Source: Saccharibacter floricola DSM 15669 (GTDB lineage Bacteria > Pseudomonadota > Alphaproteobacteria > Acetobacterales > Acetobacteraceae). From it: a stretch of 64,000 nt of DNA. Of this stretch, positions 11,199-21,380 are shown one piece after another; position 1 is the first letter of the stretch, and the number at the start of each line of letters is the position of its first letter. Below the pieces are notes generated by a model that saw nothing but the letters and a program-made list of their open reading frames with translations, did not search any database and had not been told where the DNA came from. The DNA lies in NCBI RefSeq assembly GCF_000378165.1, contig NZ_KB899335.1:186001-250000 (forward strand). The letters are read 5' to 3'. The position numbers and the translations under genes were made by a program.

Positions 11199-12095
11199 TT
11201 AACGTTCTGCCTGTAAAACACGCATAAGTTCTTCAAGCTGCTCAAGCGAGCGATAACTAATTTTAAGTGACCCGCTTTTGCCGTTAAAATTAATCTGTGT
11301 TTTAAGCCCAAGCTTCAAAGAGAGATCTTCTTCCAACCGTGCAATCTCAGGAGCACGCTCCTTACAGGTTGATGACCCTTCAGCAGCGCGATTGGCCTGC
11401 GCCACGAGCGCTTCTGTTTGGCGAACATTGAGCCCTTTGTCCAACACAATCGCCATCGCCGCAACAGGGTCTGGATGGCCGAGGAGGGCACGCGCATGCC
11501 CAGCACTGAGCAAGCCATCACGCACATGCTGCAACAATTTTTGAGGCAGGTTAAGCAGCCTAATCGTGTTGGTTATATGGGAACGCGACTTCCCAACAGC
11601 GCCCGCTAACTCTTCTTGTGTGAGATGATACTCCTGCAGCAAACGCTGCAACCCTACGGCTTCTTCAATCGGATTAAGGTCAGAGCGCTGAAGGTTTTCC
11701 ACCATTGCAGCAGCCATCGCGTCCGTATCATCAAGCATACGAATATGCACCGGGACTTCATGCAGGCCCGCACGCTGCGAGGCCCGCCAGCGACGCTCCC
11801 CAGCGATGATTTGATAATGGCCTTCTTTATCGGGGTTTGGCCTGACAAGAAGAGGCTGGATGACCCCGCGTGACCGAATGGAATCCGCAAGCTCATTAAG
11901 CTTATCAGAGTCCATATGCACACGCGGCTGGAAAGGACTCGGCGCTAACAGATCAACAGCAAGCGTGCCCGGCTGGTTGAACGTGACCGTCTCCTTCGAG
12001 GTCTTATGGCCAGCGCGCGCCAAGACAGGCGCTTGATCGCCCAGCAAAGCGGCCAATCCACGGCCCAATCGTTGTGGGGGTCCCTTCTTAGCCAT
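11199..12095 (-). CDS. parB: Chromosome partitioning protein ParB
   Basis: A DNA-binding CTPase that loads at parS and spreads to build the partition complex. In its 298 residues, the N-terminal GLAALLGD segment contacts ParA in relatives. The sulfiredoxin-like domain carries PFQPR, IQPLLVRP and GERRWRASQRAG, the last being the CTP-binding motif. The helix-turn-helix follows (LTQEELAGAVGKSRSHITN), then a C-terminal dimerisation region. It lies 4 bases after parA in the conserved alphaproteobacterial rsmG-parA-parB order; a parS site lies about 1.3 kb upstream, inside rsmG. Confidence 0.96.
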   Translation of the reverse strand: MAKKGPPQRLGRGLAALLGDQAPVLARAGHKTSKETVTFNQPGTLAVDLLAPSPFQPRVHMDSDKLNELADSIRSRGVIQPLLVRPNPDKEGHYQIIAGERRWRASQRAGLHEVPVHIRMLDDTDAMAAAMVENLQRSDLNPIEEAVGLQRLLQEYHLTQEELAGAVGKSRSHITNTIRLLNLPQKLLQHVRDGLLSAGHARALLGHPDPVAAMAIVLDKGLNVRQTEALVAQANRAAEGSSTCKERAPEIARLEEDLSLKLGLKTQINFNGKSGSLKISYRSLEQLEELMRVLQAER

Positions 12096-12099
12096 GGCC

Positions 12100-12888
12100 T
12101 TATCCCTTCTTCTGACGCGCTATCAGCTCTTCAGCTAGCGCCATATAGGCTTCAGCCCCTGAGGAACGTCGCGCATAGGTTAGCACCGACTGCCCATGAC
12201 TTTGCGCTTCTGGAATACGGACATTACGCGGAATCAGCGTCTGGAAGACTTGCTCACCAAAGAAACCACGCGCATCTTCAGCAACCAAAGAAGACAGATT
12301 ATTCCGCCGGTCATACATCGTCAGCACGATCCCCTCGAGATGGAGATCCGCATTAAAGGCATGCCGCACCCGGTCGATTGTGCGCACGAGCTGGCTAATC
12401 CCCTCAAGAGCAAAAAACTCACATTGCAGTGGCACCAAAACACTTTGAGCAATAATGAGGGCATTGAGTGTCAACAGCCCTAAGCTCGGCGGGCAATCAA
12501 TGAGGATCGTATCATACCGGTCTTTCACATGCTGCAACGCATCGTGCAGGCGATATTCGCGGCGCTCCCCATCCATAATTTCCAATTCAGCACCAGCGAG
12601 GTCTCCATTCGCAGGGATCACGTCAAGCTGTTCAATCGCACTGGGTTGGGGAAGAGTGGAAGGCTCTTCATCACCCACAAGGGCACTATAGCTCCCCCGG
12701 CTTCGCTGGTCATACTCGACACCGAGCCCCGTTGACGCATTCCCTTGCGGGTCAAGATCCACCAACAAAACACGCTGATGCTGAGCAAGAGCTGCCGCAA
12801 GGTTAAGGCTGGTTGTGGTTTTTCCCACCCCGCCTTTTTGGTTCGCAATGGCGATAATTCGAGTGTTGTGTGAAGGCTCTTTAGACAC
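12100..12888 (-). CDS. parA: Chromosome partitioning ATPase ParA
   Basis: A deviant-Walker ATPase that moves ParB-parS complexes and so segregates the origin region. The deviant Walker A motif IANQKGGVGKTTT lies close to the N-terminus, with LLVDLDPQGNASTG and LIDCPPSLGLLTLNAL as the next conserved blocks. I took the GTG at 12888, which gives 262 residues, the usual size, and only an 8-base overlap with the end of rsmG. A GTG at 12927 is also in frame but would overlap rsmG by 47 bases. Neither has a clear ribosome site, so translation is probably coupled to rsmG. Confidence 0.93.
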   Translation of the reverse strand: MSKEPSHNTRIIAIANQKGGVGKTTTSLNLAAALAQHQRVLLVDLDPQGNASTGLGVEYDQRSRGSYSALVGDEEPSTLPQPSAIEQLDVIPANGDLAGAELEIMDGERREYRLHDALQHVKDRYDTILIDCPPSLGLLTLNALIIAQSVLVPLQCEFFALEGISQLVRTIDRVRHAFNADLHLEGIVLTMYDRRNNLSSLVAEDARGFFGEQVFQTLIPRNVRIPEAQSHGQSVLTYARRSSGAEAYMALAEELIARQKKG

Positions 12889-13459
12889 GTTTAAGTTCAC
12901 TAATTTTAAGAAGAACGCCGTCCTCACTGGACTGGCTGGGGAAGCTTTCTGTTGTCATGTGCCAGTCACGGGTAGCGTCGGTCAACTCATCAGAGGCTTT
13001 TCGCCCTTTTAAAAACAAACAAAACCCCTCTTTTTTCAAAAGAGGTTCTGCCCAGCCAAGCAATCGCGACAACGGGGCTAGAGCACGCGCGGTAATAATA
13101 TCCGCAGGTTCTACCTCAGCGGCCTCAATCCGTTTTGCGATGACCGTTGTCTTTACCCCGCACAGTCGGCTTGCTTCACGCAGAAAGGCGCATTTGCGCT
13201 GGTCAGATTCAATAAGTGTGACCGGATTTCCCGTCGCAATCGCGAGGATAAGACCAGGGAAGCCACCCCCTGACCCTAGGTCAATTATGCGTACTCCAGC
13301 AGGAATATGCGCCGTAAGCTGCAAACTATCCTCAATATGGCGCGACCAAAGATGGGCCATATCGCGGGGACTAATGAGGTTAATGCGGCTATTCCATTGC
13401 TCTAACAGGGCGGCAAATCGCTCTAGTTTCTCATGCGTTTCACGTGAAACACCCGTCAT
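12881..13459 (-). CDS. rsmG: 16S rRNA (guanine-N7) methyltransferase RsmG
   Basis: Methylates N7 of the conserved guanine at position 527 (E. coli numbering) of 16S rRNA using S-adenosylmethionine. The 192-residue protein shows the RsmG pattern: [12 protein letters not shown] followed by [12 protein letters not shown], the SAM-binding loop [29 protein letters not shown], and [13 protein letters not shown]. The ATG overlaps the mnmG stop (ATGA). Codons for residues VSRET near the N-terminus also form the parS palindrome, so the protein sequence here is under a second, DNA-level constraint. Confidence 0.95.
13437..13450. promoter_or_regulatory. parS partition site inside rsmG
   Basis: The sequence gtttcacgtgaaac is a perfect 14-base palindrome. 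With its flanks it matches 15 of 16 bases of the well-known bacterial parS consensus TGTTTCACGTGAAACA. It lies in the first codons of rsmG, close to parA and parB, where many alphaproteobacteria carry parS. It should be the nucleation site for ParB and marks the origin-proximal part of the chromosome. Confidence 0.88.
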
Positions 13460-15315
13460 GATCGACTCCTGACATGCGCAAGCAGAGCAACCAGCGCAGC
13501 CGGCGTTAGGCCACGCACACGCTGCGCCGCTGCAAAATTAGGCGGCCGTGCTTCCGAAAGGCGCTCTTGCATTTCACGGCTTAACCCACCAATCGCACTG
13601 TAGTCCAGATCATCGGGAAGTTGCAGCCCCGTTTCACTTTGAAGCTGGGCAATATCGCGCTCTTGCCGGCGGAGGTACCCGCCATACCGTGCTTCTGTCT
13701 GAACATGGCGACGCACACGTTCGGGCAGCTGTCCATACCAAGGGGCAAGGGCCTTCACCTGTTCTTCTTGCGCTTGGGTCGCGAGGACATCAAGCAAGCT
13801 CCGCCGCCGTCCATCTTGAGAAACCTCAATCCCCTGTTTTTGCAGGTCTTGGGGAAGGAAGATTTTGTCTGATGCGCGTTTAATCGCCTCATCAATCTGA
13901 CGCACCGTTTCCTCAAACATATGGCGCCGTTCATCACTGACACAGCCCGCCTCAATGCCTTTAGGCGTTAAACGCAAGTCCGCGTTATCGGCTCGAAGAA
14001 GAAGGCGATATTCCGCCCGCGAGGTAAACATGCGGTACGGCTCGCTAATGCCGTGCAAGGTCAGATCATCGACCAACACACCCAAGTAAGATTCATGGCG
14101 GCCTAACGTCAGCGGTTCTTTGCCCGCCACAGCACGCGCCGCATTGACGCCAGCCAGCAAGCCTTGCGCCCCGGCTTCTTCATAGCCTGTCGTGCCGTTG
14201 ATTTGCCCAGCCAGATACAGCCCCGGCAATTTTCTCAGTTCAAGAGAAGGACGTAGCTCGCGTGGATCGACATAGTCATATTCAACCGCATAGCCCGGTG
14301 TCACGATCCGGGCGTTTTCCAACCCCGGCATGCTAGCAATCATTTTCTCTTGAACGGAAGCGGGCAGGGAGGTGCTGATTCCATTTGGATACACCAAGTC
14401 ACCGCCGGGATTTTCAGGCAGTCCCTCTGGCTCCAAAAACACCTGATGGCTATCACGCCCTGCAAAACGAATGATTTTATCTTCAATCGACGGGCAATAG
14501 CGCGGCCCACGCCCAACAATTTCTCCCCCATACATGGCGGAGAGATGAAGGTTGTCACGAATGATCTGATGAGTCTCTGCCGTTGTGTGGGTAATCCGAC
14601 AGGTCAGCTGACGATGAGGCAGCTCAGACGTGAGCGCACTAAAAGCCTCTGGCTCCTCATCCCCCACATCAGCAGGCAAGCTCTCCCAATCAATGCTATC
14701 GCGAGCAAGACGAGGAGGGGTGCCTGTTTTCAACCGCCCCATAGCAAGACCGAGCGCCTCAAGTCGCTCTCCAAGCTGCGTAGCGGGGGCCTCCCCAATA
14801 CGCCCAGCTTCTTCTTTGACATCACCGGTATGGATCACCCCACGTAGGAACGTCCCACTGGTAATCACCACAGCGCCCGCATGATAGCGACGGCCATCTT
14901 CACACACCACACCGCTCACGCGCTGATCGTCAACGATCAGATCACCCACAGCACCTGCCTCAATCACAAGGTTAGGTGTCGCACGCAACAACTCCTGCAC
15001 CGCCGCACGGTAAAGAAAGCGATCTGCTTGCGCACGCGGGCCATGAACAGCAGGCCCTTTGGAGCGATTAAGTAGTTTGAAATGAATACCAGCCCGATCG
15101 GCCGCTTTCCCCATAATCCCATCAAGGGCATCAATTTCACGCACAAGGTGACCTTTGCCGATCCCGCCAATGGCAGGATTGCACGACATCGCCCCGATTG
15201 TGTCGGGGTTCTGTGTCAGCAATAACGTCGCTGCTCCCGTACGAGCGGACGCCGCCGCGGCCTCGGTGCCCGCATGGCCACCACCGATGACGATCACATC
15301 ATAATCTGGGGTCAT
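13456..15315 (-). CDS. mnmG: tRNA uridine-5-carboxymethylaminomethyl modification enzyme MnmG
   Basis: The FAD-binding partner of MnmE; the two form the cmnm5U modification at the wobble uridine of several tRNAs. The 619-residue protein begins with the FAD-binding Rossmann signature [14 protein letters not shown]. It carries [42 protein letters not shown] and a C-terminal region with [15 protein letters not shown] and YGGYLRRQ, which are all family signatures. The ATG at 15315 follows the mnmE stop by 6 bases, and the stop overlaps the rsmG start. GidA is the older name. Confidence 0.97.
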
Positions 15316-15321
15316 GATCTC

Positions 15322-16617
15322 TTATTTCCCGATACAAAACTGGCCAAAAATCGTGTCGAGCAAGGCTTCAACATCCACATGCCCGGTTAAACGCCCCAAA
15401 GCGCGCATCGCCAAGCGCAGCTCTTCACCACGAATCTCCGGCCATGGTGCGCTCATCGCACGCTCTAAATGATCCCGCGCTTCCTCCAGCCCAGCACGAT
15501 GACGGGCCCGCGTTAGGGGAGGAGCCGCACGTTGGTTCATCAACGTCTTCACCACATCACTGAGGATCGCCCGCAGCGGAGCAATCCCCTCTGGGCTTTG
15601 CGTATGGATGCCAATCTCTCCCTCTAACGCCGGCACAAGGTCAATCTTTGTGCGGACACGGATCGCATCAGGAGCCAAGGTCTCAGCGTCATCACCGGGG
15701 CCAACAAGATGCAGTACCCGATCCGCCTTTTCTACATGGCGCATAGCACGACGGATCCCTTCCGCCTCAATCTCATCATCCGTCTCGCGCAGCCCGGCGG
15801 TATCAATCAAACGCAGCTTAATACCATCCAGCATCCAATCCACACTGATCGCATCACGCGTCGTCCCGGCTTTTTGCGTAACGATCGCCGCATCATGCCC
15901 ACACAGCGCATTCAACAAGCTCGACTTCCCAACATTAGGCGCCCCTGCGATGACAACCGTCAGGCCTTCACGCGTGATTTCTCCACGTTCATCCTTTAAA
16001 TGCTCGCTCATCTCGTGGCCTAAAGCCCGGCACTCTCCAAGCAGCGCTTCTTCCACCTCAGCTGGCAGCTCCTCGTCGGGAAAGTCAATCAAGGCCTCTT
16101 GCTGCGCAAGTACCTGCCGCAAACGCTGGCTCCATCCCTGATACAACGTGCTTAACACACCATCAGCTTGGGCAAGCGCTTGCTTCCGCTGGGCCTGTGT
16201 TTCCGCATCGACAAGGTCGGCAATCGCTTCCGCCTGAAGCAAATCCAGCCGCCCTGCTTGAACAGCGCGGCGCGTAAACTCACCCGGCTCGGCAGGCCGT
16301 GCTCCAAGAGAAACGAGGGCCTGTGCGACCGATTCAATAATCGCGGGGCCGGCATGAAGATGCAGCTCAGCGCTATCTTCTCCCGTATAGGAACGCGGGC
16401 CTGGAAGCCACAGGATCAAAGCCTGATCCAACACCTCTCCATCATGACGCAAAGAGCGTAAACTTGCGTAACGTGGAGCAGGTAACGAGCCTGCAAGGCT
16501 CTCAAGAATGAACGCACTTTGAGGCCCACTGAGCCGCATCACGGCAATCGCCGCACGGCCAAGCCCGGTCGCGAGTGCAAAAATAGTGGGGGTCTGTGAA
16601 GACATGGAGGCAGTCAT
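15322..16617 (-). CDS. mnmE: tRNA modification GTPase MnmE
   Basis: A G-domain protein that works with MnmG on wobble uridines. The 431-residue product has an N-terminal formyl-THF-binding domain ([39 protein letters not shown]). A Ras-like GTPase domain is inserted in a helical domain, with the P-loop [15 protein letters not shown]2/G3 parts [10 protein letters not shown] and [11 protein letters not shown], and the end CIGK with the catalytic cysteine. I chose the ATG at 16617 because GGAAG is 7 bases upstream; ATGs at 16629 and 16605 are in the same frame. Confidence 0.96.
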
Positions 16618-16693
16618 GGGTGCTTCCATACAGCACTCTTGAAGGAAAATCAGCTTTATTGACGTTCTCAGCTCAAAAAGGCAGCTTAACGCT

Positions 16694-17187: not shown

Positions 17188-18489
17188 TTAGTTATTCATC
17201 GCATCAAAGAAGTCTTGGTTAGACTTACTATAGCGAAGCTTGTCGAGGAGGAAGTCCATCGCATCCATCGTGCCCATCGGGGCCAAGATGCGGCGGAGCA
17301 CCCACATTTTCGACAAGGCAGCACGATCCACCAACAATTCTTCTTTCCGCGTGCCAGACTTCGTGATGTCAATCGCAGGGAAGGTGCGTTTATCGGAAAG
17401 CTTACGATCAAGGATGAGCTCAGAGTTACCCGTGCCTTTGAACTCTTCAAAGATCACTTCATCCATACGTGAGCCCGTATCAATCAACGCTGTCGCGATA
17501 ATCGTGAGCGAGCCACCTTCTTCAATGTTACGCGCCGCACCGAAGAAACGCTTTGGACGTTGCAGCGCATTGGCATCAACACCACCGGTCAACACCTTAC
17601 CAGAAGACGGAACAACCGTATTGTAGGCACGCGCTAAACGAGTGATGGAATCAAGCAAAATGACCACATCACGTTTATGTTCAACGAGACGTTTGGCTTT
17701 TTCCAACACCATTTCCGTCACCTGAACATGACGGTTCGCAGGCTCATCAAACGTAGAAGCCACGACTTCACCGCGCACAGAGCGCGCCATGTCGGTCACT
17801 TCTTCAGGACGTTCATCAATGAGAAGAACGATCAGGAAAACGTCAGGATGGTTCGCGGTAATAGATGCCGCAATGCTCTGCAACATCACGGTTTTACCCG
17901 TACGTGGAGGAGCGACGATCAAGGCACGCTGGCCCATCCCGATAGGGGCAACCAGATCAATAACACGCGAGGTATGATCGCGCTGGTCACGGCGGCCTTT
18001 GCTCTTGGCCGTCTTCGGTGTTTTCTCGTCTTCCTTTGGTTCCGTTTCCATCCGCAAACGACGTTCTGGGAACAAAGGCGTTAAGTTGTCAAAATTAATG
18101 CGTGATCGGACAGTTTCCGGCGCTTCAAAATTGATCGTATTGACTTTTAGCAGAGAAAAGTAGCGCTCTCCGTCACGCGGAGCGCGGATTTCCCCTTCAA
18201 CCGTATCCCCTGGACGAAGGCCAAAACGGCGGACTTGGTTGGGTGAAATATAAATATCATCTGGCCCAGGGAGGAAGTTAGCCTCTGGGCTACGGAGAAA
18301 ACCAAATCCATCAGGAAGGATTTCGAGAGTACCTTCCCCATACACAATCTGGTCACGCTCAGCCAAGGTTTTGAGAATGGCAAACATGATGTCCTGCTTA
18401 CGCATGGACGAAGCATTCTCAATATCCAGCTCTTCAGCATAATCGAGCAGATCAGCAGGAGTTTTCTTCTTCAATTCGGCGAGATGCAT
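17188..18489 (-). CDS. rho: Transcription termination factor Rho
   Basis: A hexameric RNA-dependent ATPase that ends transcription. The 433-residue product starts with [21 protein letters not shown], the Rho N-terminal helical domain. It has the primary RNA-binding fold ([35 protein letters not shown]), an RNA-binding/ATPase core with the Walker [26 protein letters not shown], the Q-loop/R-loop [10 protein letters not shown] and [21 protein letters not shown] slightly charged insert ([18 protein letters not shown]) near residue 150-170 is variable in the family. It has a leader of about 270 bases. Confidence 0.97.
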
Positions 18490-18760: not shown

Positions 18761-20305
18761 TTATAGGACTTTCATCATCGCTTCCGCTGTTCGCAAGGAA
18801 AGCGCCATGATCGTCAAGGCCGGGTTTGCTGCTCCTGCACTCGGGAATATTGAATGGTCACTGATCCACAAATTGTCGATGTCAAAGCTTTGCCCGTAAG
18901 GCGTGACCACGGCTTTCGCGCTATCTTTGCCCATACGGCATGTGCCAATCATATGGGCAGCGCGGCTGAAAACACGAATATCTTTCGCATCAACAGAGCG
19001 CCATAGAGCTGTCATCACGTCGGTTGCATGACGGTGCATGGCTTCTTCATTGGGGCCATAGCTGTAATCAATGCGCGGTTTGGGCAGACCAAAACCGTCC
19101 CGTTCCTCTGATAACGTCACGCGGTTTTCATCACGCGGGAGCGTTTCGCCATGCATCCCAATCCCGGCACTGTGGTTATAGTGGGCCAGTGTTCGCGCCA
19201 ATGATTCACCGCGTCGGTTACTGCCGCGCGCCAGCCCAGCCGTCCACGTAACGGGCATCATACCCAAAGACTGCAAAAGATAACCGCCCGCAAAATCAGC
19301 CCCTTTAGGGCGGATCATATCCTCCGTGATGGTCAGGGATGGATACCCCTTATTAGGCCGCATTTCGTCATCAAACACACCCCATACTTGGGTCGAGATA
19401 TGGGTCATATAATTGCGTCCCACTAAGCCGGAGCTATTAGCAAGCCCTGTATGGAGCAGCAGACGCGCTGTCTCCACAGCACCGGCGGAGAGCACAACAG
19501 AACGGCATTTTTGGCGTTCTTCTCGCCCAGCGCGCTGGTAAATCACGGCCGTAATTCGCCCTTGAGTGTCACGCTCAAAGCCTGTGACCATACAGCCTGG
19601 GCGTATCTCCCCACCATGCGCAACAGCCATCGGTAGCCAGGTATTATCGGCTCCCGACTTTGAACTATTACGGCACCCCTGATGGCACGCTCCGCAATTT
19701 TGGCACGCATCACGCCGCCCATAATAAGGCTGGTCACGTTCTTGGGTGACCAAAGCAACAGGACCATCAGCATGGCGCAAACCGACCTGGTCACAGGCAT
19801 CGCGCATTTTAAGCGCAGCTCCATTAGCGGCCGGTGGTGGGTACGCATAGCGACGCTGAGCATCCCATGGATAAGACGCAGGACCACTCACCCCGATAAA
19901 ATCCTCAACCCGCTCAATGTAAGGGAGCAGCTCATCATAGCCGAAAGGCCAGTCTTCGCCCTCTCCTGTCTCTGTTTTAAGCTGAAAATCACGCGGATCC
20001 ATTCGCGGCAAAAAAGCACCATAATGGAGCAGCGACCCACCAACGCCCGTGCCACTATTATTACCGCCAAAGGCTTGGGGCGTTGTACCGCCAGAGAGGC
20101 GCTCATGACGCCAATAGAGCTCCTGAGCACCCATTTCATCAGGTGTATAGCGGTTTGCGTCAAATTTAGGCCCAGCTTCTAAAGCCACAACCGTGCGTCC
20201 TTGCCGGGCAAGTTCAGCCATTAATGGCGCGCCACCTGCGCCCGTACCGACGATAACGGTATCAACGACTTTATTGGCAGAAAACCGTGTCATTGTCTCA
20301 TTCAT
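18761..20305 (-). CDS. GMC-family FAD dehydrogenase with cysteine cluster motif
   Basis: A 514-residue glucose-methanol-choline oxidoreductase. It has the N-terminal FAD fold VIVGTGAGGAPLMAELA, GTGVGGSLLHYGAF for flavin binding, and the C-terminal GTCRMG and DHSIFPSAGAANPALTIMALSLR blocks. At about residues 201-211 lies C-x2-C-x2-C-x3-C (CQNCGACHQGC), a spacing that suits an iron-sulfur cluster, as in FAD-dependent glucose dehydrogenases. The substrate (sugar, alcohol or acid) is unknown. There is no Tat signal and no cytochrome partner nearby. The ATG at 20305 has GGAAG upstream. It lies downstream of the subunit-3-like gene but after a 330-base structured spacer. Confidence 0.82.
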   Translation of the reverse strand: MNETMTRFSANKVVDTVIVGTGAGGAPLMAELARQGRTVVALEAGPKFDANRYTPDEMGAQELYWRHERLSGGTTPQAFGGNNSGTGVGGSLLHYGAFLPRMDPRDFQLKTETGEGEDWPFGYDELLPYIERVEDFIGVSGPASYPWDAQRRYAYPPPAANGAALKMRDACDQVGLRHADGPVALVTQERDQPYYGRRDACQNCGACHQGCRNSSKSGADNTWLPMAVAHGGEIRPGCMVTGFERDTQGRITAVIYQRAGREERQKCRSVVLSAGAVETARLLLHTGLANSSGLVGRNYMTHISTQVWGVFDDEMRPNKGYPSLTITEDMIRPKGADFAGGYLLQSLGMMPVTWTAGLARGSNRRGESLARTLAHYNHSAGIGMHGETLPRDENRVTLSEERDGFGLPKPRIDYSYGPNEEAMHRHATDVMTALWRSVDAKDIRVFSRAAHMIGTCRMGKDSAKAVVTPYGQSFDIDNLWISDHSIFPSAGAANPALTIMALSLRTAEAMMKVL

Positions 20306-20635
20306 GAACGCACTTCCGTAGATGTGTGTGTACTGGGGTACATGGGGATTGTACGACCCCATGACCGTGTGGGTACCGAGTACCGGGGACGGTACTGTAC
20401 CCGGTTATAAAAAGGGGATTGTACACAGCCTTACTGTGGACAATTCTGGATAACGTGCTGCACCCTTTGAGAAAGCTTAGCCTTAGAGTTGTACACAGTG
20501 TGAGTAAGATGGGGTACATTTTTAGAAAGCCGGGTACCACAGTACTCACAGGCTTCCTCTCCATCTCCATCTTTTTCTCTTTTTATATTTATTATTAGGG
20601 AGAGAACACTTTCCTGTGCATTGATCATCTCGCAC
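20306..20635 (-). other. Intergenic spacer rich in GTAC-centred hairpins
   Basis: This 330-base gap between the subunit-3-like gene and the GMC gene has no open frame of interest. It holds twelve GTAC tetranucleotides between 20330 and 20545, far above chance (about one per 256 bases). At least three are inside clear hairpins: 20342-20362 (stem atgggg/ccccat), 20371-20402 (gggtac-gtaccg / cggtac-gtaccc) and 20418-20444 (attgt-a-cacag / ctgtg-g-acaat). The decamer ttgtacacag occurs twice (20419 and 20489). The part at 20575-20600 is very AT-rich. Its role is unknown; see findings. Confidence 0.6.
20371..20402 (-). repeat. Strong GTAC inverted repeat
   Basis: Arms gggtac + gtaccg (20371-20385) and cggtac + gtaccc (20390-20402) face each other around ggga. 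Each arm holds two GTAC units, so the whole 32 bases folds into a nearly perfect stem-loop. It is the core of the GTAC cluster upstream of the GMC gene. A transcriptional pause, RNA-stability element or operator are all possible. Confidence 0.7.
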
Positions 20636-21238
20636 TCACAATCCTTCAAAGAGATCACGTTGGTTTAACCCAATTTCTTGGAAGCCTTGGAGATGATCAT
20701 CCCCACCTGTCAAAAGAGCTGAAATATCCAGCGCCTCTTGAACGACCGGATGAGCAAAAAAAGTGCCTATAATATCGGCTCGAAGATCACAGCTCCACAG
20801 AGACATCTGATGAGGCGTTAAAGACGTTGGCACAGCTTCAGGAAGAGTTCCTTCCAAGGCGTGATCAAGAAGCTCCCCACGCTGAGCGGATGAGAGAGTG
20901 TGGTATGAACGGTGATGACGTGCATGAGCGTGCGCTTCAATGCTGTGTAACCCTTTCTCCCAAGCCTCTTTATCAGCTGGGAGATCAGCATAACGCCAGC
21001 CATCACGTAACCCATCTAATGCCTGATCGAGAAGGAAAGCTAATGGCACATTAACGCCATCGGGTAAGAGGAGATGTTGAGGGAGAATATCGTCACAGAT
21101 TCGCTCTAAAAGCGAAAAAGAGTCGAGCGAAAGATGGCAGGGCCGCTCTTGCGGACTGTCCAACCGATCTAAAAGCAGAGCACGAGTTCGTGATGAAAGA
21201 TGCGCTGACTCTAGGAGAGAAGGCGATGTTAGGGTCAT
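20636..21238 (-). CDS. Gluconate 2-dehydrogenase subunit 3-like protein
   Basis: A 200-residue protein whose centre matches the small (gamma) subunit of membrane FAD dehydrogenases: LLERICDDILPQ, PDGVNVPLAFLLDQAL and LSSAQRGELLDHALEG follow the family order. Such subunits normally help the GMC-type large subunit fold and be exported. I see no Tat or Sec signal here, even in the longer in-frame extension from a TTG at 21379. ATG at 21238; a TATAAT box lies only 12 bases before it, so the message may be nearly leaderless. The large subunit is downstream, past the GTAC-rich spacer. Confidence 0.65.
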   Translation of the reverse strand: MTLTSPSLLESAHLSSRTRALLLDRLDSPQERPCHLSLDSFSLLERICDDILPQHLLLPDGVNVPLAFLLDQALDGLRDGWRYADLPADKEAWEKGLHSIEAHAHARHHRSYHTLSSAQRGELLDHALEGTLPEAVPTSLTPHQMSLWSCDLRADIIGTFFAHPVVQEALDISALLTGGDDHLQGFQEIGLNQRDLFEGL

Positions 21239-21250
21239 AACAGAGGGACC

Positions 21251-21256
21251 ATTATA
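21251..21256 (-). promoter_or_regulatory. Possible -10 box just before the subunit-3-like gene
   Basis: Read on the minus strand this is TATAAT, 12 bases ahead of the ATG at 21238. No good -35 is seen at 16-18 bases. If used, the 5' leader would be only a few bases long. Confidence 0.3.
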
Positions 21257-21380
21257 GAAGATATCATGGAACAACTCTTCCCGTTTGGCTGAAAAATACG
21301 GTATCGTGAACCGGAAAAGATGTTCTTCTTTAAGGAAAGCATCTTCTTTTATTGTTAATGTCTGCACGACAGGAGCCAAA

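Follow-up and report, generated by a model that had tools for sequence, protein, structure and literature searches.

Why does a short intergenic spacer carry twelve copies of one four-base palindrome? The question arises within a window of 64 kb (the whole stretch of 64,000 nucleotides analysed here, from whose first letter all positions are counted), in which a spacer at 20306-20635 separates a GMC oxidoreductase gene (18761-20305, minus strand; PF00732/PF05199) from a gene resembling gluconate 2-dehydrogenase subunit 3 (20636-21379, minus strand; PF13618). The initial annotation of this DNA saw the cluster as a spacer between two dehydrogenase genes. It was right about the location and the shared strand, but the spacer does not appear to be an element of the dehydrogenase pair, and we regard both genes as incidental neighbours.

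A dense array of GTAC sites

All twelve GTAC tetranucleotides previously counted in the 216 bases of 20330-20545 are present at the positions given for them, starting at 20330, 20338, 20351, 20373, 20380, 20392, 20397, 20421, 20491, 20514, 20534 and 20542. Their density is about 45 times that of the sampled remainder of the same genome. In ten sampled 20-kb stretches of this genome, GTAC occurs on average 0.27 times and at most 5 times per 216 bp, and the approximate intergenic part of these samples holds 14 copies in 12,614 bases. Other intergenic DNA of the genome, the comparison on which the initial annotation had staked its claim of an abnormal density, is thus far sparser, and the claim is confirmed. 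When 20330-20545 was dinucleotide-shuffled 5000 times, the mean number of GTAC was 3.1 and the maximum 9. Elsewhere in the window, counting all stretches outside the spacer, no 216 bp hold more than 2 copies, and among 15 other four-base palindromes the highest 216-bp maximum is 8 (GCGC). The window as a whole contains 83 GTAC, whereas 100 shuffles of it average 107; apart from the cluster, the tetranucleotide is mildly avoided. Over the whole genome there are 15 GTAC triples (gaps of up to 30), eight of them in the spacer, and the six other places with such triples are within long open frames, which fill 98-100% of the 100 bp examined. The repeated decamer that had been noticed, TTGTACACAG, was likewise recovered twice in the spacer, at 20419 and 20489. 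On the basis of its density and its conservation in aligned origins, we describe 20330-20545 as an array of twelve predicted targets of a putatively orphan GTAC methyltransferase.

The strong inverted repeats reported around GTAC are also present in the spacer, whose minus strand folds better than its shuffles (z = -2.7). As GTAC is self-complementary, any two of its copies can pair. The double-GTAC stem at 20371-20402 exists as a bulged stem of 13 pairs, but at least 80% of these pairs are kept in only 6 of 49 relatives. The check on pairing conservation that had been proposed, when run on these 49 aligned relatives, goes against the hairpins: each of the eleven helices of at least five pairs that the minimum-energy fold predicts retains 80% or more of its pairs in between 1 and 19 relatives. 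It thus seems, to judge from these alignments, that selection acts on the GTAC sites and not on the hairpins. Within 20000-20900 no Rfam family was found at threshold. A function as RNA or hairpin is therefore disfavoured by both the poorly conserved pairing and the missing Rfam match, and the earlier suggestion of a differential-expression or RNA-stability element is left unsupported on the same two grounds. A scan of 20200-20800 for promoters gave one match, which is about the chance level. Finally, the spacer has no match better than E 0.1 in its own genome besides itself, and a plasmid search with it returned no match. We thus rejected a mobile element or repeat family, and the idea of a repeat-family remnant finds no support in this genome.

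The spacer as a probable chromosomal replication origin

Three kinds of evidence, namely GC skew, DnaA boxes and likeness to the hemE-side spacer of relatives, indicate that the whole spacer, 20306-20635, probably is the chromosomal replication origin (oriC). The cumulative GC skew of the 64-kb window reaches its minimum at 20317, which is 13 bases away from the first GTAC, and the skew changes sign at the spacer. Six matches to TTRTNCACA occur in the window and three of them are in the spacer (20419, 20435 and 20489), so that three exact TT[AG]TNCACA DnaA boxes stand within 79 bp (20419-20497). Two of the boxes read TTGTACACA and have a GTAC inside them. In the first (20419-20427, plus strand, no mismatch to the consensus), GTAC is kept in 50 of 50 aligned origins and the two bases on each side are invariant; in the other (20489-20497, plus strand), it is kept in 47 of 50. 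The third box, TTGTCCACA, lies on the minus strand at 20435-20443 and is without GTAC. An AT-rich and pyrimidine-rich stretch at 20557-20629 is a candidate DNA-unwinding element: the AT content is 0.70 in the 50-bp windows from 20560 and 20580 against 0.40-0.62 in those from 20300-20540, and T-rich stretches after the GTAC cluster were seen by eye in relatives too. The spacer has one GATC and no GANTC; the latter led us to reject GANTC and CcrM as an explanation of the array.

The genes to the left of the spacer are of the origin type. Beyond GMC follow, all on the minus strand, rho (17188-18489; PF07497/PF07498), mnmE, also called trmE (15322-16629; PF10396/PF12631), mnmG, also called gidA (13456-15315; PF01134), parA (12100-12927; PF13614) and parB (11199-12095; PF17762/PF02195). 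Outside Saccharibacter and Bombella, 42 clade members were examined and all 42 have the array just upstream of hemE, the place of oriC that is classical for Alphaproteobacteria. In G024 and G010, two other genera for which the flanks were checked, the array lies between the Maf gene and the HemE gene. The experimentally located Caulobacter origin is bounded by hemE (PMC1914354).

In the genome of the window, 24 kb separate hemE from the spacer, because of which we think that the line of Saccharibacter and Bombella has probably undergone a rearrangement that gave the spacer its dehydrogenase neighbours. A DNA search of 60 genomes (own included) found the spacer in 8 others, each with 10-12 GTAC per 250 bp, and on the named Saccharibacter and Bombella contigs GMC still adjoins the array. 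For the 18 Gluconobacter GMC homologues that were fetched, the upstream DNA (up to 700 bp) has 0-2 GTAC. It can be added that the Saccharibacter/Bombella origin is without its hemE neighbour in G000 (the window's genome), G001 and G034, where hemE is 19-26 kb away. Of the operator array with a GTAC core that the initial annotation had considered, the array of sites is close to our reading, but the operator is not, as elsewhere the array is found beside hemE and here it sits at the GC-skew switch.

For the conservation of single sites we used an alignment of 50 rows (42 hemE-side origins, the window, three whole-genome loci and four named Bombella loci), in which some rows are near-duplicates and from which the three clade members lacking the methyltransferase described below (MTase2) are absent. 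From 20330 to 20542, GTAC is intact in 34, 49, 37, 43, 42, 8, 18, 50, 47, 50, 50 and 9 of the 50 rows. Most positions are thus kept over 24 genera, while the hairpins are not, and the sites at 20392, 20397 and 20542 are mostly local. In the 50 origins, the major base has a mean frequency of 0.83 in GTAC columns and of 0.65 in the remaining columns from the first site to the last. Over all twelve sites there are 10 cells that are one base off GTAC, departures being mostly of two or more bases, and this rarity of one-mismatch states suggests selection on the tetramer itself. Flanking bases are conserved at the two DnaA boxes and at 20338, 20380, 20421 and 20534, and are variable at 20351 and 20373. 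The site at 20534-20537, intact in 50 of 50 rows, lies within GGGTACC and adjoins the AT-rich stretch. A GGTACCC resembling it also occurs upstream of hemE in two genomes without MTase2 (L214 and L223), and this site is possibly older than the array.

A second methyltransferase and the distribution of GTAC-rich origins

The genome of the window encodes two methyltransferases of the PF01555 family, a CcrM-like enzyme and a protein of 271 aa that we call MTase2 (G000:C1:190321-191133). The CcrM-like protein, whose gene's neighbour reads as RNase HII, was the only one compared with the NCBIfam CcrM model, and it scores 614 bits, under the model's cut-off of 830. In the 3.7-kb locus of MTase2 we recognized by eye MltA and an Smr-like protein, between whose genes MTase2 lies, and one further open reading frame, but no gene for an endonuclease; over 30 loci, the MltA gene adjoins MTase2 in 26 and Smr in 11.

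Among the matches listed, a CcrM-like PF01555 protein is found in 52 of 52 clade genomes and MTase2 in 49 of 52, as compared with 28 of 52 for PF02086 and 24 of 52 for PF00145. Hence, of the three methyltransferase families scanned in these 52 genomes, only the CcrM-like PF01555 enzymes and MTase2 are clade-wide. The PF02086 and PF00145 enzymes are weaker candidates for owners of the GTAC sites, being patchy in the clade, and neither family has an intact member in the window's genome. This genome does contain, at G000:C6:88224-88499, an apparent remnant, which matches part of PF02086 (the Dam family) and has an internal stop. To judge by its named members, Saccharibacter and Bombella, the clade would be one of acetic acid bacteria.

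MTase2 occurs in 111 of 249 genomes of the family at E 1e-20 (110 of them match at E 3e-92 or better, G207 having only pieces), and 385 genomes drawn from the class gave four matches at E 1e-40, all in the same family. The strict pattern GTAC-4-GTAC-9-GTAC was found in 39 genomes and all 39 carry MTase2, a count that includes G170 although its locus is probably not an origin. This locus (L120, G170:C180) has six GTAC per 250 bp and lacks TTGTACACA; its contig is 1.7 kb long and comes from a genome that is 66% complete.

Over the 109 genomes of a HemE tree, at least five GTAC per 250 bp were counted in 52 of 79 genomes with MTase2 vs 0 of 30 without it; in the seven Saccharibacter/Bombella rows the count refers to the origin locus and not to the DNA upstream of hemE. 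The sample started from 60 hemE regions hand-picked for genus spread among the matches listed (40 with MTase2 and without the strict pattern, 20 without MTase2), with 30 and 20 added later. The tree leaves out G033 (no full hemE), the strict-pattern genomes G160, G167, G198, G216, G238, G245, G249, G251 and G270, and also G170 and G194.

Within the clade, 49 of 49 genomes with MTase2 have the cluster, at 6-13 GTAC per 250 bp. The three without MTase2 have no cluster, their DNA upstream of hemE having 0-1 GTAC per 250 bp. In the 500 bp upstream of hemE, TTGTACACA occurs in 42 of 42 MTase2-carrying clade members and TTATCCACA in 2 of 42; in the three genomes without the enzyme, TTGTACACA is missing and TTATCCACA occurs 2, 14 and 1 times. 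The 14 TTATCCACA boxes in 500 bp belong to L224 (G092), and they compare with group means of 0.05-0.67 outside its trio.

The HemE tree puts these three genomes inside the clade, by forks of 100/99 and, less firmly, 93/96, and a grouping of the 49 MTase2-carrying members apart from them is rejected (p-AU 0.0008). The three as one clade are not rejected (p-AU 0.44), and the absence of MTase2 within the clade may thus be one event or two. Some of their branches are long. An independent-pairs test of the association between MTase2 and the GTAC cluster was not significant, the independent changes being few.

Outside the clade, 27 of 30 genomes with MTase2 stay below five GTAC per 250 bp in the DNA upstream of hemE, so MTase2 does not need such an array. 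The shortage of GTAC outside origins is about the same in both groups (observed/expected 0.69-0.71 with MTase2 vs 0.76-0.79 without), and we rejected a whole-genome GTAC shortage as a sign of methylation, because it does not clearly differ between them. In six outside-clade genomes (loci L171, L174, L178, L189, L197 and L204; genomes G090, G168, G134, G230, G012 and G093, respectively), the MTase2 gene and hemE share a contig and are 5-9 kb apart, because of which the gene may have settled first in the vicinity of the origin.

As for specificity, the best plasmid homologue of MTase2 is a Paracoccus protein (55% identity), and the best homologues in named phages are those of cyanophages ACG-2014f (44%), ACG-2014j (43%) and Syn19 (42%), with a further one of 45% in an unannotated phage. 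In Syn19 and ACG-2014j, the homologue's gene overlaps a gene that its depositors labelled as R.RsaI, a GTAC endonuclease. This label is absent beside the homologues in ACG-2014f, the unannotated phage and the Paracoccus plasmid; the labelled phage protein has no PHROG, Pfam or PDB match, and when it was used as the query no R.RsaI was found on plasmids. The two phage loci (L287 and L288) look like restriction-modification pairs, each a methyltransferase overlapping the annotated R.RsaI gene. Residues 106-195 of MTase2 are 49-64% identical to four aligned relatives vs 34-40% for the N-terminal part; 44 and 46 of these 90 residues are identical to the Syn19 and ACG-2014j homologues, as compared with 20 of 90 (22%) for the genome's own CcrM. 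We place the putative target-recognition part of the enzyme in this region. Because the homologues overlap annotated R.RsaI genes and this middle region is conserved, we infer that MTase2 recognises GTAC.

The chemistry of the modification may be of either kind. MTase2 contains the motif TSPPY, which we take to be linked to N4-methylcytosine (m4C). M.RsaI of Rhodobacter blasticus makes m4C at GTAC (PMC6256690, Table 1), and m4C is also the product of two persistent orphan groups of GTAC type in archaea (PMC10609329). On the other hand, M.PabI makes m6A in GTAC (PMC4357717), and as GTAC enzymes can also produce m6A, MTase2 could be an enzyme of m4C or of m6A.

Explanations of the array and comparison with known systems

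The explanation that we favour, and consider likely, is that the spacer is oriC, that the GTAC array is the target set of MTase2, and that hemimethylation limits firing of the origin in a way similar to Dam and SeqA. To what was computed (origin signatures, site conservation, co-occurrence and co-absence of MTase2) this adds by reasoning the GTAC specificity, the methylation, its m4C character and the effect on initiation. In this scenario, MTase2 would methylate GTAC in the array, probably as N4-methylcytosine, and passage of the replication fork would leave the sites hemimethylated directly after initiation. Hemimethylation may then alter DnaA binding, either directly in the two TTGTACACA boxes or via a reader acting on the array. 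Ultimately, origins would fire once per cycle, which would make the system a functional analogue of Dam/SeqA on GATC.

A more specific version, which we put forward tentatively and would not quite bet on, is a second, CcrM-independent epigenetic clock on oriC. Here, an RsaI-type enzyme that has shed its restriction partner would put m4C on about a dozen GTAC sites, two of which lie in DnaA boxes, and the hemimethylated state would itself gate the binding of DnaA; loss of the enzyme would return the origin to ordinary TTATCCACA boxes.

Among the alternatives, a nucleoprotein scaffold survives best, although we consider it rather unlikely. GTAC would then be the core of sites for DnaA variants or another origin protein, and methylation would play no role. 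It is plausible in that most sites stand at the same alignment positions in the relatives, that some flanks are conserved as those of protein-binding sites would be, and that two sites are perfect TTGTACACA boxes. However, ten of the twelve sites are 2-5 mismatches away from a DnaA box on the better strand, the flanks at 20351 and 20373 vary, and the array is tied to a methyltransferase resembling the phage partners of annotated R.RsaI.

It is also conceivable that a GTAC-rich origin and MTase2 were inherited independently and that their association is a coincidence of shared ancestry. The few independent changes and the non-significant pairs test would agree with this, but the joint absence of array and enzyme in three clade members, the phage homologues paired with annotated R.RsaI, which point to GTAC, and the rare one-mismatch states, which suggest selection on the tetramer, make it very improbable. 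Least credible of all, to the point that we hardly reckon with it, is a transcriptional or RNA element of a dehydrogenase operon (operator array, attenuator or stability hairpin), which would suit the position between two same-strand genes and the better-than-shuffled folding, but not the hemE-side array in all 42 clade members examined outside Saccharibacter and Bombella, the 0-2 GTAC upstream of all 18 Gluconobacter GMC homologues, or the poorly kept hairpins without an Rfam match.

Sequestration of the E. coli origin by methylation is textbook knowledge, and in Alphaproteobacteria attention has been on CcrM and CtrA. The clade described here is of industrial use. It is now given a probable replication origin, tied to a conserved methyltransferase that is apparently unstudied. 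Searches of an open-access collection listed neither a GTAC cluster nor GTAC methylation for an origin of acetic acid bacteria; GTAC itself is a widely distributed motif in 210 methylomes, according to a figure legend in PMC5390034. With the proposed GTAC system and natural lineages without it, methylation control of initiation would become directly testable outside Gammaproteobacteria. If the more specific version, the m4C clock, is true, it would mean m4C-based control of replication in Bacteria, and DnaA boxes that co-evolve with a methyltransferase.

How does the array compare with what is known? The E. coli oriC has about a dozen GATC in about 220-250 bp, and the present array is similar in that about a dozen four-base palindromes fill a similar length. 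Unlike the Dam/SeqA system, the spacer has a single GATC, and the PF02086 match of its genome is partial and interrupted by a stop. The CcrM/GANTC system is represented in the clade, as in Alphaproteobacteria, by a CcrM-like PF01555 match in each of the 52 genomes scanned (among the matches listed), but the spacer has no GANTC and MTase2 is a separate protein. The likeness to the RsaI system, judged from phage homologues, consists in the overlap of MTase2 homologues with annotated R.RsaI genes in Syn19 and ACG-2014j; it differs in that no endonuclease gene was seen by eye beside the window genome's own MTase2, the neighbour in 26 of 30 loci being MltA. In Burkholderia, GTWWAC and CACAG are methylated at origins (PMC7364216); there, the methylation is of adenine and the motifs are other ones.

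The closest parallel is provided by Blow et al. 2016 (PMC4752239), who describe four origin clusters of orphan-methyltransferase motifs: GATC (Dam), TTAA in Arthrobacter, CTCGAG in Nocardia and CTAG in Haloarchaea. The array resembles theirs in being a non-coding cluster at a probable origin, in orthologous places, and correlated with a conserved, putatively orphan methyltransferase. It differs in its motif, which is not among their four, in belonging to Alphaproteobacteria, in the presence of a CcrM-like enzyme besides, in the likeness of its enzyme to phage R.RsaI partners, and in having two motifs inside DnaA boxes. The anatomy is thus that of the known orphan-methyltransferase origin clusters, and what is new is the motif, the lineage and the position of motifs inside DnaA boxes.
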